The notes under the pieces: generated by a model | The model's input: only the letters and a program-made list of their open reading frames with translations | Told to the model about the DNA's origin: nothing | Database searches by the model: none | From: a virus | Length of the DNA stretch: 27,560 nt | IMG/VR virus record: IMGVR_UViG_3300021959_003822 | Span: 1 to 27,560 of that record | Direction: 5' to 3' (one strand) | Translations under genes and position numbers: made by a program | Part shown: positions 1,143 through 14,390 of the stretch, piece after piece | Position numbering within the stretch: position 1 is the stretch's first letter | Layout: every line of letters begins with the position of its first letter

Positions 1143-1171
1143 TTGACATACTGTGCAATCATTGCTATATT
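1143..1171 (+). promoter_or_regulatory. Promoter P1 with GCAATNATTGC operator
   Basis: TTGACA (1143-1148), a 17-base spacer, then TATATT (1166-1171). The last 11 bases of the spacer are the palindrome GCAATCATTGC (1155-1165). A CTTAACA element follows at 1181-1187, near the expected transcription start. It drives the genes from 1200 to 2039, including the cyclotransferase-like enzyme. Confidence 0.82.
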
Positions 1172-1199
1172 AAGTTATTGCTTAACAAAGGAGGTCAGT

Positions 1200-1433
1200 A
1201 TGACTGTCAAAAATTTCTATCAAAACCTTGCCGAATACTGGGATGCACCGAATGACAATCACATGCAGGAATTTCAGCCAGAAGCTGACTGTATGGATGA
1301 GGTTGTTGCTGGTGTAAGTAAAGCGTGGGCAGCAGTTGATGCCTATTGCAAGGCTAAAGGCATGTCACAAGATGACATGGAAGATTTTGCCGATGAGTTA
1401 ATTGGTAAAGTATTAAGAGAAGGAGAGTTTTAA
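1200..1433 (+). CDS. Small acidic hypothetical protein
   Basis: A 77-residue acidic protein of unknown function, first gene of the P1 unit. It begins MTVKNFYQNLAEYW and has two probable amphipathic helices, the second ending DMEDFADELIGKVLREGEF. I chose the ATG at 1200 because AAAGGAGG lies just upstream; a longer frame from 1140 would start inside the promoter. Its stop overlaps the next start (TAATG). No catalytic or metal-binding motif is visible. Small acidic early phage proteins often bind host proteins, but nothing here shows that. Confidence 0.7.
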   Translation: MTVKNFYQNLAEYWDAPNDNHMQEFQPEADCMDEVVAGVSKAWAAVDAYCKAKGMSQDDMEDFADELIGKVLREGEF

Positions 1434-1627
1434 TGTACGAGGTACGCATTACAAAAAGTATTGAACGAGGAATGTTCAATGTGGATTTAGTTGCATGGGA
1501 GCGTAATGGAAGTGGCGTTGCTCATGGAAAGGCATTCAAGGTCAATAGACAAGCGGCAGACAAAGAGGCCGCTAGGGTTGCTGATCTTTATAAGGCAGAA
1601 ATTGTCGATAAGACGAAGGGAGATTAA
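1433..1627 (+). CDS. Small hypothetical protein
   Basis: A 64-residue protein that starts within the previous stop (TAATG at 1431-1435) behind AGGAGAG at 1421-1427. The sequence (YEVRITKSIERGMFNVDLVAWERN) suggests a small beta-sheet followed by one helix rich in Ala, Lys and Glu. No family is recognised. It sits between two P1-driven genes and is almost certainly co-translated with them. Confidence 0.65.
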   Translation: MYEVRITKSIERGMFNVDLVAWERNGSGVAHGKAFKVNRQAADKEAARVADLYKAEIVDKTKGD

Positions 1628-1628
1628 A

Positions 1629-2039
1629 ATGTTGTATTTTTCTTATGGATCAAATCTTGATGTGCTGCAAATGCAGCACCGATGCCCAAATGCAGAGCCG
1701 TTAGGTGCGGCTTACTTCCCGAATTGGAAGTTAGTATTCCGTCACGTTGCCGACATTGAGCCGGAAGATGGCGCGATGTTGCCAGTTGGCATCTGGGATG
1801 TGACAGATGATTGCTTGAAAGCTTTGGATCGTTACGAGGGTGTAAAGCATGGTTTGTACCGCAGGGTATTTATCAATGGTCTTTTGACGTACCGCATGAA
1901 TAATACCGACATTGCGCCGCCAGCCAAAGGCTACTTTGACACGATCATGAGGGGCTATAAAGATTTCGATCTTGATGAAACCTATCTGTGGGGGGCTGCT
2001 CTTGATGCCCAAAACCACATGACTGAAAAAACTGCTTGA
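1629..2039 (+). CDS. Gamma-glutamylcyclotransferase-like (GGCT/AIG2) enzyme
   Basis: A 136-residue protein with the hallmarks of the GGCT fold. The N-terminal YFSYGSNL motif (Y6-L10) forms the substrate-binding loop, and LDRYEGVKHGLYRR places E70 where the catalytic glutamate of human GGCT lies (DEQEGVKSGMY). A later APPAKGYFDTIMRGYKDFDL segment also matches the family's order. Such enzymes release 5-oxoproline from gamma-glutamyl amines or dipeptides. The ATG at 1629 has AGGGAG six bases upstream; a longer frame from 1491 would overlap the previous gene. It is the last gene of the P1 unit and shares its operator with the amidoligase promoter at 7495, which suggests related chemistry. The actual substrate is unknown. 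Confidence 0.8.
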   Translation: MLYFSYGSNLDVLQMQHRCPNAEPLGAAYFPNWKLVFRHVADIEPEDGAMLPVGIWDVTDDCLKALDRYEGVKHGLYRRVFINGLLTYRMNNTDIAPPAKGYFDTIMRGYKDFDLDETYLWGAALDAQNHMTEKTA

Positions 2040-2064
2040 CAATGATTGCAATCATTGCTTGAGT
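2036..2064 (+). promoter_or_regulatory. Promoter P2 with GCAATNATTGC operator
   Basis: TTGACA (2036-2041) overlaps the cyclotransferase stop. After a 17-base spacer the -10 is weak (TTGAGT, running into ATATG). The operator GCAATCATTGC (2048-2058) fills the end of the spacer and lies in a longer perfect palindrome, AATGATTGCAATCATT (2042-2057). CTTAACA follows at 2073-2079, as in P1 and P3. Confidence 0.72.
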
Positions 2065-2099
2065 ATATGTGTCTTAACAAACAAAACGAGGTAACAACG

Positions 2100-2300
2100 A
2101 TGTTTGAGTTAATTGATCCAGCGTATCCAGATGCCGCAAGTGACGAGCGTCTGGTTCCGATTTTGTCTGAAATTATGAAGTTGCAGACTGAGATCCAAAG
2201 CGCACAGTGGGAAGGCCGCGATGCTACAGCATTGTCGCAGCGGCTGCGGTCTTTAAACAAGTCTTACATGGATGGAGCGGTTTATGAGCCACAATTCTGA
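2100..2300 (+). CDS. Small hypothetical helical protein
   Basis: A 66-residue protein, first gene of the P2 unit. After an N-terminal DPAYPDAASDERLVP stretch it is mainly helical (ILSEIMKLQTEIQSAQWEGR), possibly a short coiled coil. The ATG at 2100 follows GAGGT at 2088-2092; the in-frame codon at 2046 lies inside the promoter. Its last 17 bases overlap the metallopeptidase gene. No family is recognised. The coiled-coil character would suit a partner or adaptor protein, but this is only suggestive. Confidence 0.62.
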   Translation: MFELIDPAYPDAASDERLVPILSEIMKLQTEIQSAQWEGRDATALSQRLRSLNKSYMDGAVYEPQF

Positions 2301-2673
2301 AAACGTAAAGCGTATTGATATGGCGCTTCATGTGCAGCAGCTATGCGCTGAGAATAATATCACGGTAACATACCAGTCTATGCATGACGAGGTTCCGCGT
2401 TACTATGCTCAACCAGCTAGGCGGTTGATCTGCATTAGGCCAACGAAAAACACAGGGTACTATGTTAGTGCGCTGCATGAGTTGGGGCATATTCTTGGCG
2501 ATAAACAAAATAACGATAATACAGTGCTTGAAAGAGAGTTGTATGCGTGGATTTGGGCTAGACAAAAGGCTCTTGTATGGACTGAAACAGCGGAGCGCAT
2601 TATGCGCCGTGCTATGGATAGTTACGGCTGGAAAGCGCACCAAAAGCAAGTGTGGGAAAGGACGTTTGTGTAA
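2284..2673 (+). CDS. ImmA/IrrE-like zinc metallopeptidase
   Basis: A 129-residue protein with a zincin motif H65-E-L-G-H69 (ALHELGHILG), followed about 15 residues later by ERELYAW, where E83 or E85 could be the third zinc ligand. This HELGH...E arrangement in a short cytoplasmic protein is typical of the ImmA/IrrE group. In ICEBs1 of Bacillus, ImmA cleaves the XRE-type repressor ImmR. The ATG at 2284 has GGAG five bases upstream. The gene overlaps both neighbours. An XRE-type regulator is encoded at 9295 under the same operator family, so a repressor-protease pair is a reasonable inference. No signal peptide is visible, so it acts in the cytoplasm. Confidence 0.75.
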   Translation: MSHNSENVKRIDMALHVQQLCAENNITVTYQSMHDEVPRYYAQPARRLICIRPTKNTGYYVSALHELGHILGDKQNNDNTVLERELYAWIWARQKALVWTETAERIMRRAMDSYGWKAHQKQVWERTFV

Positions 2674-3461
2674 TGCAAGTAATTACGAGAAAAGAGGCCA
2701 TTGCGCAGGGGTTGGTGCGGTACTTTACTGGCAAGCCTTGCAAGCATGGTCACGTTGCCACAAGACGAGCATCAACAGGTTACTGTGATGAATGTTTCCA
2801 AATTAAGTATGAAGCTAATAGGCAAGATAAGGAATATCTTCGTAAAGAGCGTGAGCGTGGCAGGCGTTGGAAGCGGGCTAATAAAGATATTATCAACGCT
2901 AGGCGAAGAGTGCGTGATAAGGAATGGTACTTACCGCCGCCGCCTAGTCCAAGGCAAATTGCAAAAAGTGCAGGGGAGAATTTTTACTTTACCGGCAAGC
3001 CTTGTCCAAATGGTCATATTGATTATAGGAAGGTAAGTTGCGGCAGTTGCGTAACGTGTAAAAAGGAATATGGAAAAAATGATGATCGCCGCGCTGCAAA
3101 CACTGAAAGCGCAAGGCGATATAGAAAAAATAATCCTGAGGCTGAAAGAGCAAAAAGCAGACGTTGGGCAGAAAAAAATAAACCGCTTCTTTTGGCTAAA
3201 GCTGCGCGAAGAAGGTGCGCCCAAGTTAATGCAACGCCTTCATGGGCTGATCATGATAAAATCCTGACAAAATATAAAGAGCGCGATGCCATGCAAAAAT
3301 TAACCGGCCTTCAGTATGATGTTGATCACTACTATCCAATCCAAAGCGATTTTATTTGCGGTTTGCACATTTCAGCAAATTTGCGTGTTATTTTAAGCAA
3401 AGATAACAAAAGGAAAAGCAACAAAATGCCAGAAAATTTTTATGGAAGGATTGCAGCATGA
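2673..3461 (+). CDS. HNH endonuclease with duplicated zinc fingers
   Basis: A 262-residue protein. Two copies of a finger-like unit sit at about residues 17-41 (YFTGKPCKHGH...CDEC) and 105-129 (YFTGKPCPNGH...CVTC), separated by a highly basic linker. The C-terminal 50 residues form an HNH-type core: DVDHYYPI (D218, H219), CGLHISANLRVI and a final KSNK, the pattern of small phage HNH nucleases. It starts in the previous stop (TAATG). The fingers probably bind DNA and position the nuclease, as in homing endonucleases, but the gene interrupts no obvious coding sequence. Confidence 0.82.
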   Translation: MQVITRKEAIAQGLVRYFTGKPCKHGHVATRRASTGYCDECFQIKYEANRQDKEYLRKERERGRRWKRANKDIINARRRVRDKEWYLPPPPSPRQIAKSAGENFYFTGKPCPNGHIDYRKVSCGSCVTCKKEYGKNDDRRAANTESARRYRKNNPEAERAKSRRWAEKNKPLLLAKAARRRCAQVNATPSWADHDKILTKYKERDAMQKLTGLQYDVDHYYPIQSDFICGLHISANLRVILSKDNKRKSNKMPENFYGRIAA

Positions 3462-3667
3462 GAAAGCACGGTAGTCCGATGGATCGCGGGGCGGCAGACA
3501 GATACTATGGTCGCTCTTATGATCCGCATTGGTACCCAGATGGCACATACAATGGGGAAAGGGTCGAGTTAAAAGACATGACACCCGATGAAATTGTGTC
3601 TTACACTAAAGGCTACAAAGAAGAGGATAGCCGCAAAGATTGGGGCGAAGGAGTTAAAAATGTCTGA
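3458..3667 (+). CDS. Conserved-looking small hypothetical protein
   Basis: A 69-residue protein beginning MRKHGSPMDRGAADRYYGR and continuing with DPHWYPDGTYNGERV and a C-terminal helix (MTPDEIVSYTKGYKEEDSRK). The SP-DRG-AD-YYGR...PHWYPDGT pattern resembles small uncharacterised proteins I associate with many tailed phages, function unknown. It overlaps the HNH stop (ATGA) and runs eight bases into the next gene, so it belongs to the same operon. Its aromatic and arginine content suggests nucleic-acid or protein binding, without proof. Confidence 0.7.
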   Translation: MRKHGSPMDRGAADRYYGRSYDPHWYPDGTYNGERVELKDMTPDEIVSYTKGYKEEDSRKDWGEGVKNV

Positions 3668-3956
3668 GCAAAATAGAATGTATTGGGGTCTAAAAGAGTT
3701 GCGGTTTTTGATGGACGAGGACGTTGCTCTTGATCGGATCAAGGAAAAGGTCGATGCCTTGATGAATGTATCGCTTGGCTGTCAGTGCAGCGAGCGGTAT
3801 AACTATATTGTTGACCAGCAGAAACGGGTTGTAGAGGTGGACGGGAGCGAAATTGTTCGGCTTACTACAGCAGATGTGAAGTGCCACTGGAACGTGGATC
3901 TTCACATGAGGCCAGGAACCAGTGAAATTGTTCGCATTGAAGCAAGGAGGGTATAG
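3660..3956 (+). CDS. Hypothetical protein
   Basis: A 98-residue protein. The N-terminal half is helical (YWGLKELRFLMDEDVALDRIKEKVDALM) and the C-terminal half is beta-rich, with two Cys in SLGCQCSE. The ATG at 3660 has AAGGAG well placed upstream. It overlaps the preceding gene by eight bases and the following GTG start by one base. I see no known domain. Confidence 0.62.
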   Translation: MSEQNRMYWGLKELRFLMDEDVALDRIKEKVDALMNVSLGCQCSERYNYIVDQQKRVVEVDGSEIVRLTTADVKCHWNVDLHMRPGTSEIVRIEARRV

Positions 3957-4162
3957 TGGGAGTTCCATCAAGAGAAGATATTATTGCGGCGTTGCGTCTG
4001 CCGGAAGTCGCGCCAGCAAAACATAGAGTTCATGTTAGAACAGATGTTATAACACCAGCGCAAAAGGCGGTGAAGGATCGGCTTAAAAGGTCTTGGGCTG
4101 CTAGCCTAGAAGATCAGTTGCGTAGGAAGGCTGGTGTGAAAAGGTCAAAATGGGATGGGTGA
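3956..4162 (+). CDS. Small basic hypothetical protein, GTG start
   Basis: A 68-residue basic protein starting with GTG at 3956, within the previous TAG, and preceded by a strong AGGAGG. The C-terminus (AQKAVKDRLKRSWAASLEDQ and a final KRSKW) is a positively charged helix. It is the last gene before the iteron-like block, so its stop probably marks the end of the P2 unit. No family is recognised. Confidence 0.6.
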   Translation: MGVPSREDIIAALRLPEVAPAKHRVHVRTDVITPAQKAVKDRLKRSWAASLEDQLRRKAGVKRSKWDG

Positions 4163-4209
4163 TCGTGTGGTAAATAAATACCACATTAACCAGAATTCGG
4201 TTAACTTTT

Positions 4210-4325
4210 ACTTACCTACTTACCTAGTTACCTATAGGTAAGTAAAACGTAGGTAAGTAATAAGTTACTGAATATATTAACGAAATCGGTTTACTTACCT
4301 GCCCCGATTTCTTCTGTAGGTAAGT
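4210..4325. repeat. Iteron-like cluster of ACTTACCTA / TAGGTAAGT
   Basis: Six 9-mers and one shorter copy lie in both orientations. Forward copies are at 4210-4218, 4218-4226 (sharing one base) and 4293-4301 (ending in G), plus a partial GTTACCTA at 4227-4234. Reverse copies TAGGTAAGT are at 4235-4243, 4250-4258 and 4317-4325. The centre is the perfect palindrome TTACCTATAGGTAA. An AAATCGG/CCGATTT inverted pair (4283-4289, 4304-4310) brackets the lone forward copy. Clustered short repeats in AT-rich, gene-free DNA are typical of replication origins or multi-site operators; which applies is not visible. Confidence 0.85.
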
Positions 4326-4354
4326 TAAGAGTTGGTTGTAAGTCATTGAAAAGG

Positions 4355-4425
4355 CCTATGGTTACAAAGTTTCCTATGGTTACATATATATATATATGGG
4401 TAGGTAGTGTAACCTACCCCATATA
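4355..4425. repeat. Direct repeat, AT tract and hairpin next to the iterons
   Basis: CCTATGGTTACA occurs at 4355-4366 and 4373-4384. It is followed by an alternating TA tract (about 4382-4397) and then a hairpin pairing GGGTAGGT (4398-4405) with ACCTACCC (4412-4419); the stem can extend into flanking TATAT/ATATA. The hairpin lies upstream of the gene at 4449 and has no T tract. An easily melted TA tract next to iterons fits a DNA-unwinding element, but it could also be the leader of the next gene. Confidence 0.65.
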
Positions 4426-4448
4426 CGAAAGTTAGAAAGACGCGCAAC

Positions 4449-4754
4449 ATGCAACAAGACGGACTGAGTTCTTGCTCGATATGCAGCAAGCTTCATGATG
4501 CAGAAAACCTGATTGAGTTGAACGGCAACCCTATCTGCTTTCCGTGTTCGATGTATGTGCAGTGGGAAGATATTGATGAGGTGCGTAGACCAAGCGATTA
4601 CGATGATGCTTTGGATCAGCAACACGAAAATAAAATCATTTCACTTATGCTAGAATTTGCAGGGCTTCAAGAAACAGCGTCAGGGGTGATATACTACCCA
4701 GACGAACACCACGATAATGTTTACCATTTAGTGGGAACGAACAGAGAGGATTGA
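4449..4754 (+). CDS. Small CxxC...CxxC zinc-ribbon-like protein
   Basis: A 101-residue protein. Its first 35 residues carry two CxxC pairs (C9/C12 and C30/C33) separated by 17 residues, a likely single zinc-ribbon or LIM-like knuckle. The rest is acidic (YVQWEDIDEVRRPSDYDDAL) and ends in a histidine-rich stretch (YPDEHHDNVYH). The ribosome-binding site before the ATG at 4449 is weak (AGAAAGACG). It ends just before the small terminase subunit start, so the two are probably co-expressed. No known function is recognised. Confidence 0.65.
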   Translation: MQQDGLSSCSICSKLHDAENLIELNGNPICFPCSMYVQWEDIDEVRRPSDYDDALDQQHENKIISLMLEFAGLQETASGVIYYPDEHHDNVYHLVGTNRED

Positions 4755-4756
4755 AT

Positions 4757-5296
4757 ATGCCAAAGGTCGGAGAAGATTTGCCAAAAGAAATGCGTCTTGC
4801 GGGATACAAAAGGCTAAAGCCAATACAGCAGGAGTTCTTGAACAATTACTTGCACAAGGATATGACACAGACAGAAGCAGCGCGGCAGGCAGGCTACAAG
4901 AACGCCTCGGTGTCCGCTGTACGGCTGTTAAAGAGTCCAGTGGTAGCAGAACGCCTGCAAGAGATGCGTCTAGAGACACAGGCCAAATATGGGGTAACAA
5001 TCGACAAGTCTATTCGGGATTTAAAAAAGCTTCGGGATCAAGCGTGGGAGAACGGGCGATTTAGTGAGGCTATTCGTGCTGAAGAGCTGCGTTTGAAGGC
5101 AGCAGGACTACTTATTAACAAGCAGCACGTTGTCAAGGAGGATATTACAGCGCAAACAAAAGATCAGATCGCTGACAAACTGGCGGAATTCAAGCGTTTA
5201 GCTGAGTCACGCATGGTAAACGTAACACCAGATGTAGACGTTATCGAGCATGAGGCACAAGATATAGTTCAAGATAAGCAGGATACGGTAAAATAG
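4757..5296 (+). CDS. terS: Terminase small subunit
   Basis: A 179-residue protein with the layout of the Terminase_2 small subunit family. Residues about 20-70 include QQEFLNNYLHKDMTQTEAAR followed by QAGYKNASVSAVRLLKSP, the typical helix-turn-helix that binds the packaging site on phage DNA. A long helical oligomerisation part and a charged tail follow. The protein forms a ring that recognises DNA and hands it to the large subunit. The ATG at 4757 has GAGAGGA seven bases upstream; an in-frame TTG at 4751 is too close to it. Unusually, TerL is about 7.2 kb away at 12499. Confidence 0.82.
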   Translation: MPKVGEDLPKEMRLAGYKRLKPIQQEFLNNYLHKDMTQTEAARQAGYKNASVSAVRLLKSPVVAERLQEMRLETQAKYGVTIDKSIRDLKKLRDQAWENGRFSEAIRAEELRLKAAGLLINKQHVVKEDITAQTKDQIADKLAEFKRLAESRMVNVTPDVDVIEHEAQDIVQDKQDTVK

Positions 5297-5579
5297 TACC
5301 ACACACCCCGTGCGGGGGGAGCGGGCGGTGTTCGGGGCCTGCTCGGGGCCTTATAGGCGTAGATTTGTTCGGGTTCGGGGCCTGAATCGGGCCTTTTCGG
5401 GGCCTCGGGGTAGGGTTTCTGCGGGTTTGCGGCTGCTCTTCTCCGATGACAAACGGGGCCTGCTCGGGATCGGGCCTCGGGAACCGTGTAATTGTTCGGG
5501 ATCGGTCCGGGAAGCAGCAGCTCGTACGGGAAAACGTACGCATAGACACTAACGGCAATGTAGGCATCGGGACGGGACA

Positions 5580-5591
5580 GAACAATTGTTC
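5580..5591. promoter_or_regulatory. GAACAATTGTTC palindrome
   Basis: A perfect 12-bp palindrome, extended by one base each side (AGAACAATTGTTCT). It is one of three perfect copies in non-coding DNA of this window. It lies in the GC-rich repeat region and is a probable protein-binding site, protein unknown. Confidence 0.55.
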
Positions 5592-5649
5592 TAATCGGGG
5601 TTGACTTCCTGGCCTGAATCGGGACATTATTGAGTCCTCCCTTGATCTG

Positions 5650-5681
5650 CCCCCGGTGTTCCTCCATTCGCCGGGGGTTTT
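5650..5681 (+). terminator. Probable terminator hairpin
   Basis: CCCCCGG (5650-5656) pairs with CCGGGGG (5671-5677) across a 14-base loop, followed by TTTTCTCC. It would stop transcripts entering the P3 promoter region from TerS or from the repeat block. The T tract is short, so strength is uncertain. Confidence 0.6.
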
Positions 5682-5702
5682 CTCCTCCCCGGGCCTGAAC
5701 AC

Positions 5703-5714
5703 GAACAATTGTTC
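5703..5714. promoter_or_regulatory. GAACAATTGTTC palindrome upstream of P3
   Basis: A perfect 12-bp palindrome 88 bases upstream of the P3 -35. Related copies sit upstream of P4 (6529-6540, GTACAATTGTTC) and P5 (7431-7442). Confidence 0.6.
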
Positions 5715-5802
5715 TGCTTGTCCCCGGCCCGCAGCTCGTACAGCAACGGCAATGTAGGTATTGGGACAACAAAACTTTTTTTATTTTTTGTTGTTTTTCT
5801 TG

Positions 5803-5831
5803 TTGACACTGCTCGCAATAGTTGCTTATAT
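5803..5831 (+). promoter_or_regulatory. Promoter P3 with GCAATAGTTGC operator
   Basis: TTGACA (5803-5808), 17-base spacer, TTATAT (5826-5831). The operator variant GCAATAGTTGC (5815-5825) fills the end of the spacer, as in P1. A long T-rich tract (about 5774-5800) lies directly upstream, where an UP element would sit. CTTAACA follows at 5841-5847. Confidence 0.85.
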
Positions 5832-5859
5832 ATAGGTGTGCTTAACAGAGGAGGCCAAA

Positions 5860-6084
5860 ATGAAAACACCGCAAGTAAAGCCTGATTGGAAGACTGGCAT
5901 CTATATTGGCAACGGCGTAGTTGCCGTACCTACCGTAGATCAGAAGGTGCAGGCAGTGGTAGACTCTATCAACTGTGTGATGGAGGGGATTGGTGTAGAC
6001 GAAGGGGACAACCAAGAAGCTATGTTGCACGAGTTGGCATGGCAGTTGGTTAATGTGACGAGGGGAGAAGGCAATGAAGACTAA
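5860..6084 (+). CDS. Small hypothetical protein
   Basis: A 74-residue protein, first gene of the P3 unit, preceded by a strong AGAGGAGG. It starts MKTPQVKPDWKTGIYIGNGV, with a small beta-like segment followed by helices and an acidic end. A short HELAW sequence (MLHELAW) is not a full HExxH zinc motif. It overlaps the next gene by 11 bases. No family is recognised. Confidence 0.65.
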   Translation: MKTPQVKPDWKTGIYIGNGVVAVPTVDQKVQAVVDSINCVMEGIGVDEGDNQEAMLHELAWQLVNVTRGEGNED

Positions 6085-6262
6085 AACATATGATGTGCAG
6101 ATTGAAGCCATTGTCACCAAGACAATTCGCGTCAATGCGATTGATGAGGATGCTGCCTATGAACTGGCGCATGAGATTTTCACTGTCGCCAATGATGATC
6201 ATGAAGAGCGTTACGAGCAGAATGAAAAAAACATCTGGGAAGTGGAGGAAGAAAATGCGTAA
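6074..6262 (+). CDS. Small acidic hypothetical protein
   Basis: A 62-residue acidic protein starting at the ATG at 6074 behind GGGGAGAAGG. The N-terminal strand-like KTYDVQIEAIVTKTIRVNAI is followed by DEDAAYELAHEIF and a charged tail. This strand-helix pattern with an AxDEDAAYELA segment resembles small single-sheet domains found in many phages, function unknown. It overlaps both neighbours. Confidence 0.65.
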   Translation: MKTKTYDVQIEAIVTKTIRVNAIDEDAAYELAHEIFTVANDDHEERYEQNEKNIWEVEEENA

Positions 6263-6425
6263 GGTCGGTAACACATTAATCGGGATCGGGTTCATCGGGC
6301 TGTGCTTTGCATCGGCTATGGAGCCAGACCCAGCAGTAACGGGATCATTCTTCGTTCACGCGGGCATCGTTATGATCTTCGCGTTGACTATGGTAACGGG
6401 AGTCGCGGCGACTCGGGCCAAATAA
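6255..6425 (+). CDS. Small two-segment membrane protein
   Basis: A 56-residue protein with two hydrophobic helices, LIGIGFIGLCFASA (about 8-21) and a second at about 32-51 (FFVHAGIVMIFALTMVTGVA), separated by a short acidic loop (MEPDPAVTG). GGAGGA precedes the ATG at 6255, which lies eight bases before the previous gene's end. It should sit in the inner membrane. Size and topology would allow a holin-like or superinfection-exclusion role, but no family motif supports either. Last gene of the P3 unit. Confidence 0.68.
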   Translation: MRKVGNTLIGIGFIGLCFASAMEPDPAVTGSFFVHAGIVMIFALTMVTGVAATRAK

Positions 6426-6440
6426 CACGAACAATTTATG

Positions 6441-6473
6441 ATCGGGGATGACCGGACGAGTCCCTGATCCGGT
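6441..6473 (+). ncRNA. Possible H-type pseudoknot in a 3' UTR
   Basis: ATCGGGGA (6441-6448) can pair with TCCCTGAT (6461-6468) using one G-U pair. The loop contains ACCGGA (6451-6456), perfectly complementary to TCCGGT (6468-6473) just after the stem. Together they could form a pseudoknot directly before a strong terminator. The structure is inferred from complementarity alone. Confidence 0.35.
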
Positions 6474-6512
6474 GGCAGCACGGGTTCTGGTTCCTGTGCT
6501 GCCATTTTTTTT
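6474..6512 (+). terminator. Strong rho-independent terminator
   Basis: GGCAGCAC (6474-6481) pairs perfectly with GTGCTGCC (6496-6503), followed by ATTTTTTTT. It ends the P3 unit. Confidence 0.92.
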
Positions 6513-6596
6513 GCCCCGGGCCTGAACAGTACAATTGTTCGTAATTGGCCCCGGATTCAGCTCGTAAATCTTTTTTATTTTTTTGTGTTTTTATTG

Positions 6597-6625
6597 TTGA
6601 CAGTGTTTGCAATAGTTGCTTATAT
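6597..6625 (+). promoter_or_regulatory. Promoter P4 with GCAATAGTTGC operator
   Basis: TTGACA (6597-6602), 17-base spacer, TTATAT (6620-6625), with GCAATAGTTGC at 6609-6619. The upstream sequence repeats that of P3: a GGGCCTGAACA stretch, an ACAATTGTTC palindrome half, CAGCTCGTA (6558-6566), then a T-rich tract. The leader carries CATAAACCAG (6631-6640), shared with P5. Confidence 0.85.
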
Positions 6626-6654
6626 ATAATCATAAACCAGAAGGAGGGCATACA

Positions 6655-7257
6655 ATGCTTACAATTTCAAACATGACCGGCAAGCTTGAAGGCTTCAAAG
6701 CCATTAGTACAAACACACTAACAAACCCATTTTGTCAGAAGATGTATAATAGCAAGAAAGAGAACATCATTTGCACGAAGTGTTATAGCATGGATATGCT
6801 GCAAGGCATGCGTAAGAATTGCGCCCCAGCATGGCAACGGAACAGTGACGCTTTGTCCCTTGGCATTATCTCGCAGCATTTACTTCCAACAATTTTAGAC
6901 GCATTTTTTCGTTTCTCGGCTCATGGGGAGCTGATTAACCTAACGCATTTGGAGAATTTGCATAACATCACGTTGCACAATCCCCATTGTTCATTTGCTT
7001 TGTGGACAAAAAGAAAAGATCTTATCCGTAAGTTTTATAGCAAGAACGAAAAGCCTAGTAATCTAATCTTGATCTACAGCAACCCCAAAATTGACTCTGT
7101 TATGGATAACGTGCCTGAGTTTTTCGACCGCACGTTTAACAATGTTAGCAAGGGGAGCGAAGTAAAACAAAATTGTACTGGTCAGAAATGCAAAGATTGT
7201 CTGCTGTGCTATATTCCAAACAACGGAGTAACCCAGATTGTCGAAGCCGTGAAGTGA
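6655..7257 (+). CDS. Gp88-like cysteine-rich phage protein
   Basis: A 200-residue protein preceded by AAGGAGGG. It has an N-terminal cysteine group (C27, C40, C43 in ICTKCYSM, C56), a central RFSAHGELINLTHLENL followed by NPHCSFALWTKRKDLI, a NLILIYSNP strand, and a C-terminal cluster CTGQKCKDCLLCY. This order (CxxCY, an R-x-H-G-[DE] helix start, a P...FxxxTK strand, CxxCxxC end) resembles the phage Gp88-like family, whose biochemical role is not established. The Cys pattern suggests a bound metal or iron-sulfur cluster. It is the only gene of the P4 unit. The assignment rests on pattern memory. Confidence 0.55.
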   Translation: MLTISNMTGKLEGFKAISTNTLTNPFCQKMYNSKKENIICTKCYSMDMLQGMRKNCAPAWQRNSDALSLGIISQHLLPTILDAFFRFSAHGELINLTHLENLHNITLHNPHCSFALWTKRKDLIRKFYSKNEKPSNLILIYSNPKIDSVMDNVPEFFDRTFNNVSKGSEVKQNCTGQKCKDCLLCYIPNNGVTQIVEAVK

Positions 7258-7280
7258 ATCGGGAGAAATTGTTCGGGAAA

Positions 7281-7307
7281 AGCACGGGTTCGCCCGTGCT
7301 TTTTTTA
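7281..7307 (+). terminator. Strong rho-independent terminator
   Basis: AGCACGGG (7281-7288) pairs with CCCGTGCT (7293-7300) over a TTCG tetraloop, followed by TTTTTT. It lies 23 bases after the Gp88-like stop and ends the P4 unit. Confidence 0.95.
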
Positions 7308-7347
7308 TGATCGGGCATCTTTTTATCGGGCATCACTTTATCGGGGA
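7307..7347. repeat. TATCGGGCATC short tandem repeats
   Basis: TGATCGGGCATC, TTATCGGGCATC and TTATCGGGGAT follow one another with short T-rich gaps between two terminators. They belong to the ATCGGG words that recur in the non-coding DNA from 5330 to 7350. No gene is supported here. Confidence 0.6.
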
Positions 7348-7355
7348 TTTGCATA

Positions 7356-7379
7356 GGGGCCATAATAGGCCCTCTTTTT
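7356..7379 (+). terminator. Second terminator-like hairpin
   Basis: GGGGCC (7356-7361) pairs with GGCCCT (7368-7373, one G-U pair) over ATAATA, followed by CTTTTTG. With the hairpin at 7281 it makes a double stop after the Gp88-like gene. Confidence 0.6.
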
Positions 7380-7430
7380 GCAGGCCCCCCCACATACACC
7401 CTCGCATACGATCAATTAATAAAAAAACCC

Positions 7431-7442
7431 GAACAATTGTTC
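7431..7442. promoter_or_regulatory. GAACAATTGTTC palindrome upstream of P5
   Basis: A perfect palindrome flanked by CCC upstream and by a single G then a T run downstream (CGAACAATTGTTCG), 52 bases before the P5 -35. The rest of 7258-7578 holds two terminators, short repeats and P5. Confidence 0.6.
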
Positions 7443-7494
7443 GTTTTTTTTTCTCGATGCCAATTTATCCAGCAAAAACAAAGAGATAAAGTTG

Positions 7495-7523
7495 TTGATT
7501 GCAATGATTGCCTGTGGTATAAA
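7495..7523 (+). promoter_or_regulatory. Promoter P5 with GCAATGATTGC operator
   Basis: TTGATT (7495-7500), 17-base spacer, TATAAA (7518-7523). Here the operator GCAATGATTGC (7501-7511) starts the spacer instead of ending it, so it would still block polymerase. The leader holds a perfect hairpin GAGGCC/GGCCTC (7532-7550) and CATAAACCAGA (7550-7560), shared with P4. Confidence 0.75.
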
Positions 7524-7578
7524 CTAGACAAGAGGCCGGAGGTAGGCCTCATAAACCAGAAAAAAGAGAGTAAAAACA

Positions 7579-8841
7579 ATGACTTACTATTTTACAATTG
7601 GATGCGAATTCGAGATTGTCAATAAAGAGCCACTTTCCAGCCCACGCGGCATAGCGCAAAACGCCTACGCCAATAGCGACTTTACCCCATTCAATGAAAA
7701 TTGGGATTATTCCAGATGGGCTGATGAATTGAGCCAAGCTGGTTTCGATTGGGTGCAATGCAAATACGAAAGCACAAGAGGCATAGCCGCTGAGATAATC
7801 ACCCCGCCTATGGCTGATTGTCCAGACTGCCGTGACGATATCGCGCGGCTGTTAACTTGGATTGATCAAAAGGGTGGCCGTGGCCAGCGACAGTTTAGAG
7901 CGCAACAAGACATAACAGCCGGTTTGCATATCCATGTTGGCGTCAATATGCAGGATGGCGATATTCACCCGCCATCAGAATTCTGGCGTTCATCCAAGCG
8001 GCACATGGCCGCGACTGGCAATCATTACGCTGGCCGCGACTTTAAAGTCATGGATTTAATGCTGGCCAAAGACGTTATCACAAGATGGGCTGATAATTGG
8101 GACACCATCCAATCAATGCTGCCGCAAAAACGGCGCGACAGGCATGGCAATTGGATGGCCACTAGCATTGCCCATGTGGCAGAGGGTGGACGCCATCATG
8201 ATGCGTTTATGGCTGAAACAGACGCCAAAGCGGCCAAGCTTATTCTGGCAGGGGATAGGGATGGCAAGTTTGCTGCCGTCTCTCTCGATACTTGGACGCG
8301 GCTTGGCACTGTAGAATTCAGACAGCCATCATGCACCCTTGACCCTAAAAAGCTATGGGGATGGATTGACATCATCACAACGGCATTTAAAACGTCTATG
8401 GATGGCCGCATAACGCCAATGGCATCAGCTCAGACACTTGAGACACCCGCGCAATTGTTCAGGCGCGGCAGCCGCGTGGCAGTGCTTTACAGCATGATGC
8501 GCGTTGCGGGTGGCGCAACCACCCGCGCTCTAATATCTGCCACTGGATGGGACGCTGATACCATTCGCGCTAGAGCCAGCGAGATTAGAAGCAAGCTGCA
8601 TGCTCTTGGCATCAATGGTGACGTTGCAGTCGAAAACCATAGCCAACAAGAATACGGCCACCGGTATGGTTCAAGCGCTGGCCAGTATGACCTAGGCGGC
8701 TATGAGGTATTGCGTGAGGTGACAGCCGCCCGCCCATGCGAATTATTGCCAGCCAATAGACGCGCACCGGCCAGCATATGGTATGGCATATCAGATGAAT
8801 TGTTTGAATTCTGGCAGGCGCGCATTGAGGCATTGCGCTAA
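7579..8841 (+). CDS. Amidoligase family (Amidoligase_2) ligase
   Basis: A 420-residue protein with the motif series of the putative amidoligases related to glutamine synthetase and glutamate-cysteine ligase: GCEFE (residues 8-12), AEIITPP (71-77), GLHIHV (115-120) and GTVEFRQP (243-250), followed by LDPKKLWGWI. The acidic, histidine and arginine residues of these motifs are those expected to hold metal-ATP. Such enzymes join a carboxylate to an amine, making peptide-like bonds on small molecules or proteins. The C-terminal third is not recognised. Codon use is richer in GCC/GGC than in neighbouring early genes, hinting at separate acquisition. It is alone in the P5 unit, with its own terminators. 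Its substrate is unknown; the cyclotransferase at 1629 is the likely functional counterpart. Confidence 0.82.
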   Translation: MTYYFTIGCEFEIVNKEPLSSPRGIAQNAYANSDFTPFNENWDYSRWADELSQAGFDWVQCKYESTRGIAAEIITPPMADCPDCRDDIARLLTWIDQKGGRGQRQFRAQQDITAGLHIHVGVNMQDGDIHPPSEFWRSSKRHMAATGNHYAGRDFKVMDLMLAKDVITRWADNWDTIQSMLPQKRRDRHGNWMATSIAHVAEGGRHHDAFMAETDAKAAKLILAGDRDGKFAAVSLDTWTRLGTVEFRQPSCTLDPKKLWGWIDIITTAFKTSMDGRITPMASAQTLETPAQLFRRGSRVAVLYSMMRVAGGATTRALISATGWDADTIRARASEIRSKLHALGINGDVAVENHSQQEYGHRYGSSAGQYDLGGYEVLREVTAARPCELLPANRRAPASIWYGISDELFEFWQARIEALR

Positions 8842-8853
8842 CACAAACGGCAG

Positions 8854-8874
8854 CGGCCTAGGTACCCTAGGCCG
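8854..8874 (+). terminator. Perfect hairpin after the amidoligase
   Basis: CGGCCTAGG (8854-8862) and CCTAGGCCG (8866-8874) form a perfect 9-bp stem with a TAC loop, followed by TTGTATTTATT. It is probably a terminator with a moderate T tract. Confidence 0.75.
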
Positions 8875-8895
8875 TTGTATTTATTCAGAATAATC

Positions 8896-8929
8896 GGGGT
8901 GGGGCGGGTATGCCACCACCCCTTTTTTT
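8896..8929 (+). terminator. Second rho-independent terminator
   Basis: GGGGTGG (8896-8902) pairs with CCACCCC (8916-8922), followed by TTTTTTT. It backs up the hairpin at 8854 and isolates the amidoligase unit from P6. Confidence 0.85.
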
Positions 8930-9002
8930 ATATTGTGATGGGCGAATGGCTGCGCCAAGTTCCACATTAACAATCACCAAAAAATTTTATAATATTTTTT
9001 TC

Positions 9003-9031
9003 TTGAACTTTTGCAATCATTGCCCCATATA
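9003..9031 (+). promoter_or_regulatory. Promoter P6 with GCAATCATTGC operator
   Basis: TTGAAC (9003-9008), an AT-rich tract upstream, then CATATA (9026-9031) or TATACT (9028-9033). The operator GCAATCATTGC occupies 9013-9023. It drives the XRE-type regulator, so this copy could serve autoregulation. Confidence 0.68.
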
Positions 9032-9059: not shown

Positions 9060-9305
9060 ATGACTAAGTATAGACTTAAAATCGGCGGTGATCCTATTGA
9101 GTTCACCTCTACAGGCCCAGAGGGTTTCATTGATGCGTGGAGATATGTCTCTCGTTGCGCATCTGAAGATAACAACGAATGGATCAAGACAGCGGCAGCG
9201 CTTGCTTGTGACTGGTGTGGCAAGCCTGTTAGGTATGACACGCTTGCTGCTTTTGCCAGTGACATGATGCGTCATGGGATGCTGGAGGTTGTAGATGCCA
9301 AGTAA
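9060..9305 (+). CDS. Small hypothetical protein with a CxxC
   Basis: An 81-residue protein behind AGGAGGG, first gene of the P6 unit. It starts with a beta-like segment (KYRLKIGGDPIEFTSTGPEG) and then helices. One CxxC (CDWCGKP) plus an earlier Cys could hold a metal, but a full zinc site is not evident. It overlaps the XRE gene by 11 bases, so the two are coupled. Function unknown. Confidence 0.66.
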   Translation: MTKYRLKIGGDPIEFTSTGPEGFIDAWRYVSRCASEDNNEWIKTAAALACDWCGKPVRYDTLAAFASDMMRHGMLEVVDAK

Positions 9306-9687
9306 GGCTAAAACATCCCACAGCATGTGGGGCGGCAAAGACCTTGAGGGTATGAGGCGGGATCTGAATAAAAGCCAAGCTGCTTTTGCTAGTATTCTTG
9401 GTTTAAGCCCTCGTATGTATTGTTATTACGAAAGTGGGGAGAAAAAGATACCTCGTAGTGTAGAGTTAGCTATTCGTTATGTAATCAAGCGCGGTGATAT
9501 CGAGCCTCCGGCTGCGCCTAAGATAGAGCCTGAAGGTACCCTGACCCAGTTTCAGGAAACCAGAATAGAAATCTTGATAGATGCAGCGGAAAAAGCAGCC
9601 CAGTCTGTTTCAGATCCACTTGTGAAAAAAATTTTACAACAAAGTTCTGAGGAGCTTTCCTTCCTGTTGTCAAAATTCGATAAATAA
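9295..9687 (+). CDS. XRE (Cro/CI-type) helix-turn-helix regulator
   Basis: A 130-residue protein. Residues about 17-65 form a Cro/CI-type helix-turn-helix: LEGMRRDLNKSQAAFASILG, then LSPRMYCYYESGEKKIP and a closing helix. The rest has a proline-rich linker (about 68-80) and a long helix near the C-terminus that could dimerise. GGAGG precedes the ATG at 9295. It is transcribed from P6, which carries the shared GCAATNATTGC operator, making it the best candidate for the protein binding all six promoters. It lacks a LexA/CI-type autocleavage domain, so release would need another signal, perhaps the metallopeptidase at 2284. Confidence 0.8.
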   Translation: MPSKAKTSHSMWGGKDLEGMRRDLNKSQAAFASILGLSPRMYCYYESGEKKIPRSVELAIRYVIKRGDIEPPAAPKIEPEGTLTQFQETRIEILIDAAEKAAQSVSDPLVKKILQQSSEELSFLLSKFDK

Positions 9688-9695
9688 ACTATCAT
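9667..9695 (+). promoter_or_regulatory. Possible promoter for the head module
   Basis: TTGTCA (9667-9672), 17 bases, TATCAT (9690-9695), overlapping the end of the XRE gene and just before the 9726 start. It has no GCAAT operator. It could start the late transcript, but the match is modest and there is no other support. Confidence 0.3.
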
Positions 9696-13983: not shown

Positions 13984-14390
13984 TGTCAGGTAAAAAATAC
14001 AAAGGTCCACTGCCGAAGTCGAAGATGACAAAGGCTCAAAGAGACGCTAATAACCGCGAAGCAGGCGCTGGTAATCTTGGTGAGCAGGATCAAAAGATGA
14101 TGTATGGCGGCAAGGTCAAAGGTTACGAAGAAGGCGGAAATATTATATCTGAAGCCGATGCAAAGCGTCTAAGGAAGACTCTTCCGTATGTGCCGAAGGA
14201 AACAATTTCAGACGCCGATGCAAAGCGGCTGAGAAAGACTCTTCCGTATGTGCCGAAGGAAACAATTTCAGGCTCCGATTTAGAAAAGTTAAAAAAGCTT
14301 ATGAAGCCAGCAAATTTTGAGGGCGGCGGTGAAGTCCGTGGCATGGGTAGAGCATACCAAGGCAAGAAAAGAGGTTGCAAGATCCGGTAA
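13983..14390 (+). CDS. Small basic protein with a 20-residue tandem repeat and CKIR tail
   Basis: A 135-residue basic protein. After a lysine-rich start (MSGKKYKGPLPKSKMTKAQR) and a GGKVKGYEEGG stretch come two nearly identical 20-residue units, S(E/D)ADAKRLRKTLPYVPKETI, and the start of a third. It ends GGGEVRGMGRAYQGKKRGCKIR in short pieces of Gly and basic residues. The ending GG-V-RGMG...CKIR is shared with the protein at 17642. It begins in the TerL stop. Similar glycine/basic tails occur in small proteins of marine phages. Function unknown; a virion or DNA-associated role is guessed from charge and position. Confidence 0.7.
   Translation: MSGKKYKGPLPKSKMTKAQRDANNREAGAGNLGEQDQKMMYGGKVKGYEEGGNIISEADAKRLRKTLPYVPKETISDADAKRLRKTLPYVPKETISGSDLEKLKKLMKPANFEGGGEVRGMGRAYQGKKRGCKIR
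14148..14267 (+). repeat. Two 60-bp tandem repeats in a CDS
   Basis: Units 14148-14207 and 14208-14267 are in frame and differ at only a few bases, mostly silent (for example GCGTCTAAG against GCGGCTGAG). They encode the 20-residue repeat of the protein at 13983. Confidence 0.93.

Follow-up and report, generated by a model that had tools for sequence, protein, structure and literature searches.

An inverted repeat shared by six promoters of an uncultured marine phage: a predicted operator of the phage XRE-type protein

Promoters and genes at the locus

We analysed the entire IMG/VR contig IMGVR_UViG_3300021959_003822 (27,560 bases; virus contig G000, here called the window), which represents only about half a genome. 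In this window an 11-bp inverted repeat, GCAATNRTTGC, lies in six promoters, P1 to P6, ahead of accessory genes and of a small operon encoding an 81-amino-acid protein and an XRE-type helix-turn-helix protein (XRE). Our results make it likely that the phage's own XRE (9295-9687) recognises the repeat as its operator; it would shut P1 to P6 in the passage from early to late expression. All six promoters and the genes are on one strand:

1109-1137, + strand: intrinsic-terminator-like hairpin directly 5' of P1
1143-1171, + strand: P1; TTGACA (1143-1148), six bases, operator GCAATCATTGC (1155-1165), TATATT (1166-1171)
1200-2039, + strand: P1 unit; two small genes and a gamma-glutamylcyclotransferase-like gene (1629-2039)
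2036-2069, + strand: P2; TTGACA (2036-2041), operator (2048-2058), weak -10 box, either TTGAGT (2059-2064) or TATATG (2064-2069)
2039-2049, + strand: additional operator copy, one base off the pattern (ACAATGATTGC), overlapping the P2 site
2100-4162, + strand: P2 unit; small genes, a metallopeptidase-like gene (2284-2673) and further genes without assignment
5803-5832, + strand: P3; TTGACA (5803-5808), operator GCAATAGTTGC (5815-5825), TTATAT/TATATA
5860-6425, + strand: P3 unit; small genes without assigned function
6471-6506: terminator-like hairpin upstream of P4
6597-6626, + strand: P4; TTGACA (6597-6602), operator GCAATAGTTGC (6609-6619), TTATAT/TATATA
6655-7257, + strand: P4 unit; Gp88-like gene (PF17338, under its cut-off)
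7356-7373: terminator-like hairpin upstream of P5
7495-7523, + strand: P5; TTGATT (7495-7500), operator GCAATGATTGC (7501-7511), six bases, TATAAA (7518-7523)
7579-8841, + strand: P5 unit; Amidoligase_2-like gene
8850-8878: terminator-like hairpin upstream of P6
9003-9031, + strand: P6, promoter of the regulator operon; TTGAAC (9003-9008), four bases, operator GCAATCATTGC (9013-9023), CC, CATATA (9026-9031)
9060-9305, + strand: conserved 81-amino-acid partner gene, immediately 5' of XRE
9295-9687, + strand: XRE-type helix-turn-helix protein, 130 amino acids, proposed repressor of P1 to P6
9667-9695, + strand: promoter without operator, TTGTCA-N17-TATCAT, overlapping the 3' end of XRE, ahead of the structural genes

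The exact pattern was found at 1155, 2048, 5815, 6609, 7501 and 9013, the six positions named in an initial sequence-only reading of this DNA, and nowhere else in the 27,560-base record. A first-order Markov model of the same composition (300 runs) gave a mean of 0.22 copies and a maximum of 3. Moreover, all six copies are intergenic, in a record with an intergenic share of 8.5%, and all six are flanked by -35-like and -10-like hexamers, so that the placement between promoter boxes claimed in that reading holds for every copy in the window. Copies with one mismatch occur inside coding sequence (8018, 23696 and 26785); the one at 2039-2049 forms a 20-bp inverted repeat together with the P2 operator that it overlaps.

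The claim that P1 to P4 are identically spaced was right in part: the phase TTGACA-N6-operator is the same in all four, but a good hexamer at exactly 17 bases is present only in P1. At this spacing P2 is a weak promoter, with TTGAGT in place and TATATG 5 nt further on, and P3 and P4 have TTATAT, with TATATA at 18. P3 and P4 are 87% identical over 63 nt and are not independent of each other. P5 and P6 also have 17-base spacers, but the phase of the operator differs from that in P1 to P4. Of the six, a generic sigma-70 scan picked up P1 alone, and its overall count (21) is at the chance level (19.4); the case for P2 to P6 as promoters is therefore made by their conservation, their distance from the gene starts and the hairpins ahead of them. 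As these hairpins precede P1, P4, P5 and P6, these promoters probably begin separate units.

Shortly 3' of the -10 box, P1, P2 and P3 also share the motif CTTAACARA (1181-1189, 2073-2081 and 5841-5849), which is conserved in relatives as well (TTAACAAA/TTAAACAA) and is possibly part of a 5' leader. Upstream of P1, 556-1086 encodes a 176-amino-acid protein with stretches resembling sigma-70 region 4 and the RNA polymerase alpha C-terminal domain; it is rare in relatives.

The operator and XRE in related phages

Relatives were collected by scanning three times for terminases and once for the pattern TTGACA-N6-operator, which gave about 300 loci, and the comparison set comprised about 90 related uncultured marine phage genomes. 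Note that many of the pattern-found contigs come from a single phage group; counts of pattern matches are hence not independent events. By terminase, the closest named phages are DSL-LC04 (62%, over a shorter stretch), 023Pt_psg01 (59%) and Pelagibacter phage HTVC027P (58%). Besides the terminase genes, the window genes recurring in many relatives are the cyclotransferase-like, the amidoligase-like and the 81-amino-acid genes.

Related contigs hold the element in an unchanged phase relative to TTGACA. The arrangement TTGACA-N6-operator was present in at least 119 IMG/VR stretches, 88 of the matches listed run into a TATA-like box, and TTTT.TTG is typically found upstream of the promoter-like matches. 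In corresponding promoters the six bases from TTGACA to the operator vary (CTGCTC, CTATCT, CCATCT and TGGTAC before GCAATAGTTGC), while the operator is constant. Neither the window nor 23 whole records searched for this purpose showed a similar density of copies outside promoters; the copies read far from the accessory region in those records were promoter-type, or else box-less and mostly in coding sequence. Operator promoters resembling P1 occur in L018, L051, L076 and L094, P2 is kept in L006, L018 and L064, and the amidoligase homologues of relatives are also preceded by operators, as at P5. The interpretation put forward in the sequence-only reading, a predicted regulon of accessory genes, is supported.

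The element is linked to XRE. All uncultured TerL relatives with 5 kb or more of sequence before TerL had an XRE gene, whereas most other accessory genes come and go. Among the pattern-only matches listed with more than 5 kb downstream, 26 of the 28 promoter-like ones carry XRE, compared with 1 of the 12 box-less ones. In most relatives the promoter of the operon formed by the 81-amino-acid and XRE genes lies approximately 265-310 nt before XRE and has an operator inside, and in five diverged contigs (L056, L063, L074, L084 and L087) the site is 281-295 nt before XRE. The 81-amino-acid gene precedes XRE in nearly all relatives, and its conservation is nearly that of XRE. The cultured phages HTVC027P and 023Pt_psg01 have neither an XRE nor an 81-amino-acid gene, even at a relaxed threshold, and no operator promoters upstream of TerL; the operator copy read in HTVC027P is not flanked by promoter boxes. 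XRE and the 81-amino-acid protein had no match among 50,697 named phages.

XRE has the N-terminal helix-turn-helix fold of the XRE/Cro-CI family, as judged from profiles and a structure model. Pfam HTH_19/HTH_3 matched weakly, below the cut-off, and profile searches matched Aca2, PezA and 434. The AlphaFold2 model (predicted local distance difference test, pLDDT, 84; predicted template-modelling score, pTM, 0.45) matches HigA2, C.Kpn2I and P22 c2 over the helix-turn-helix. Among solved structures, the Aca2 autorepressors are the best sequence relatives (E 5e-6), with the similarity confined to profile positions 10-76. XRE matched no Aca2/YdiL-type Pfam domain, and the whole-protein superposition on Aca2 gave a Foldseek probability of 0.9, a root-mean-square deviation of 18 and a template-modelling score of about 0.4, for a model with the pTM given above.

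In support of a relation between XRE and the site, the operator changes by clade while the XRE operon promoter keeps its place. The classes are GCAAN3TTGC; GAAAN4TTTC/GAACN4GTTC; GTAATATATTAC; GYAATNATTRC; and GGCAMTSAN3CC. Half-changed forms such as GAAATCATTGC also occur, and the outer G...C pair is retained in nearly all classes. Promoters kilobases away from XRE match the class of their own genome: with an RMYxYYE-type recognition helix, 76 were GCAA-type versus 1 GAAA-type; in genomes with [ST]YR[QM]YxYYE and SLRMLQYYE helices, the distal promoters gave 0 GCAA-type versus 10 GAAA-type matches; and SHRMWNHYE genomes carried 18 GYAATNATTRC hybrids at distal promoters. XRE Arg40 is invariant and aligns with Arg30 of Aca2, one of the residues that contact DNA (PMC9410881), and the position aligned with Aca2 Arg39 is Glu in 33 of 38 GCAA-type genomes and Arg, His or Lys in 19 of 19 GAAA-type genomes. 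When the 120 XRE columns are ranked by their association with operator class, positions 44, 49 and 41 come 2nd, 6th and 7th, 44 and 49 being aligned to residues of Aca2 that contact DNA; this column association is suggestive only.

One clear case breaks the phylogeny. The terminase (TerL) of L188 is 97% identical to those of L191 and L200, and its XRE only 35-39% identical to theirs; both distal operators of L188 carry an extra G, a feature of all 26 operators belonging to its XRE class and of 3 of 22 in the other. Operator labels are clustered on both the XRE and the terminase trees (14 and 13 changes), so that phylogeny alone cannot tell the two apart. When single spacers were shuffled, palindromy was significant for the GCAA class (p 1e-5), and operator-free late promoters gave p 0.67.

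Several points weigh against this interpretation. L188 may reflect the exchange of a whole accessory block. The association between operator and helix is partly descent, because both sets of classes follow phylogeny. Single palindromes of the non-GCAA classes were not significant by shuffling (pooled p 0.16), and the palindromy of these classes therefore rests on recurrence across promoters and not on single sites. In the column-by-column test the helix-turn-helix as a whole was not enriched for association with operator class. Finally, 11 of 47 non-redundant genomes had no simple-class operator by the pattern used; 6 of these have the GGCA type.

A proposed early shut-off and its alternatives

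The sequence-only reading had already pointed to XRE as the binder, a guess that gains independent support from the conservation of the protein, its own operator-bearing promoter and the clade-wise change of operator and recognition helix. From the sites, their placement and conservation, their linkage to XRE and this joint change, we propose the following order of events. Upon entry of the DNA into the cell, the host-type sigma-70 promoters P1 to P6 would fire, expressing the dispersed accessory genes and the operon of the partner gene and XRE. Accumulating XRE would then bind as a dimer to the operator in the spacer between -35 and -10 and block RNA polymerase, shutting off P1 to P5 together with its own promoter P6, and polymerase would be left for the operator-free structural-gene promoter at 9667, whose strict form was found at the same place in 49 of 87 relatives. 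A symmetric site within sigma-70-type spacers, including that of the regulator's own promoter, has the anatomy of negative autoregulation; this anatomy, the parallel with the Aca proteins described below and the operator-free promoter at 9667-9695 are the reasons for proposing an early burst followed by shut-off. XRE is likely an Aca- or Cro-like, negatively autoregulated predicted repressor. A bolder version, which we regard as doubtful, is that the module of 81-amino-acid gene and XRE in a virulent phage would be an Aca-like master shut-off of dispersed early counter-defence genes, its operator and helix having switched together several times within a marine phage group, distal promoters included.

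Among the alternatives, the one that survives best, although improbable, is that the element is a positive promoter feature for a phage-altered RNA polymerase or a sigma-like factor, such as the 556-1086 protein. This protein has Sigma70_r4 and RNA_pol_A_CTD matches, and the phase of the element to the boxes is fixed in many promoters. However, among the loci compared a relative of it was seen only in the window and, more weakly, in L127, while the others keep the operator (some contigs are short upstream); as few relatives have it, it was rejected as the binder. With TTGACA and TATA boxes intact and 17 bp apart, a symmetric site between them fits blocking better than activation.

Next, and also improbable, is binding of the operator by a different protein of the phage, for example the 81-amino-acid partner (9060-9305), alone or with XRE, which it adjoins and nearly equals in conservation. 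Its confident AlphaFold2 model (pLDDT 94; helices and strands in the order E-E-H-H-H-E), however, matched no PDB fold and no DNA-binding fold, and the gene matched no family; there were weak matches to the viral proteins A0A516M232 and A0A516M4C6. Moreover, four XRE loci with operators (L142 and L174 among them) have no copy recognisable by BLAST; L174 has one by profile position.

We consider it very unlikely that a host repressor binds the element and that the phage took up a host operator. The promoters are of host type, but the operator sequence varies by phage clade, and a search of 84,980 genomes of bacteria and archaea gave the operator promoter with a TATA box at 3 places only, in bins of unrelated Firmicutes or Tenericutes; on this ground a host regulator was rejected. 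Least probable of all is that there is no regulator and that the copies only reflect the duplication of promoter cassettes or the base composition of promoters. P3 and P4 do nearly duplicate each other, but P1, P2, P5 and P6 have little in common except the operator, the surrounding bases vary in relatives while the operator stays, and the composition model expects far fewer copies, as given above.

If XRE acts as proposed, a defined operator would allow co-regulated, probably early genes of uncultured phages to be predicted from the sequence alone. For abundant marine phage groups very little is known about how genes are regulated, and a 2025 transcriptome of the cultured relative HTVC027P reports unknown functions for all of its early genes (PMC12753301). 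Small genes such as those at 1200-1627, 2100-2300, 5860-6425 and 9060-9305 are thereby marked as candidates for host take-over or counter-defence, and the natural pairs of operator class and recognition helix are material for the study of helix-turn-helix specificity and for independent repressors.

Other features of the window were noted. A second palindrome, GAACAATTGTTC, and variants with the core ACAATTGT punctuate the accessory cassettes (5580-5593, 5703-5716, 6529-6542, 7431-7444 and 19643). It has 237 occurrences, some overlapping, in 127 XRE loci, with 89 copies 61-298 bp upstream of an operator promoter, and could be the site of a second regulator, a cassette boundary or part of a terminator. 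Direct and inverted repeats of GTAGGTAAGTAA type cluster at 4190-4340, in the gap that precedes the region of the small terminase gene, and may mark a packaging or replication site. A repetitive, GC-rich stretch of TCGGGGCCTGAATCGGG type lies at 5290-5760, between the small terminase gene and P3, and at 14151-14275, within the 13983-14390 gene, a 60-bp in-frame tandem repeat encodes ADAKRLRKTLPYVPKETIS.

Comparison with known regulators

The closest parallel is with the Aca proteins (Aca2 of phage ZF40, Aca1 and Aca10), which autorepress anti-CRISPR operons and always have one repeat inside the core promoter (PMC9410906). Here, too, a small XRE-type protein is encoded behind a small gene in an operon, and an inverted repeat lies within the core promoter of that operon (P6, and its equivalent in relatives), in consensus-like promoters. 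The Aca2 probe contains GTTCGCAATTGCGAAC (PMC9410881), with GCAA and TTGC half-sites as in our element, but with no gap between them. Unlike the Aca systems, which concern one operon, several separate promoters share one operator here; no known anti-CRISPR gene is present, and the upstream 81-amino-acid gene matches no family. Since XRE has no Aca2/YdiL-type domain and no accompanying known anti-CRISPR gene, and superposes poorly as a whole protein, we have not assigned it to Aca2.

Lambda-type Cro/CI and P22 c2 have in common with XRE the helix-turn-helix fold and symmetric operators overlapping phage promoters, but in the window there is no divergent promoter pair and there are no clustered OR1-3 sites. 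No integrase was seen in the record, which covers about half a genome, and the operator pattern gave no prophage match in the 84,980 bacterial and archaeal genomes. The mycobacteriophage L1-type repressor is a case of one phage repressor acting at several genome sites, in temperate phages; its sites are many, dispersed and asymmetric, whereas those of the window are symmetric and in promoters (PMC1934351). HTVC023P-type pelagiphages, such as the lytic HTVC027P (PMC12753301), are among the nearest named phages by terminase, but HTVC027P differs in its accessory region and its regulator, lacking XRE, the 81-amino-acid partner and the operator promoters.

In the literature searched neither this regulon nor this operator was described, although this does not prove that no description exists. 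The kind of regulator is already known, and what appears to be new, as judged from sequence comparison, is a predicted multi-operon regulon in a probably virulent phage, together with the clade-wise switching of its operator.

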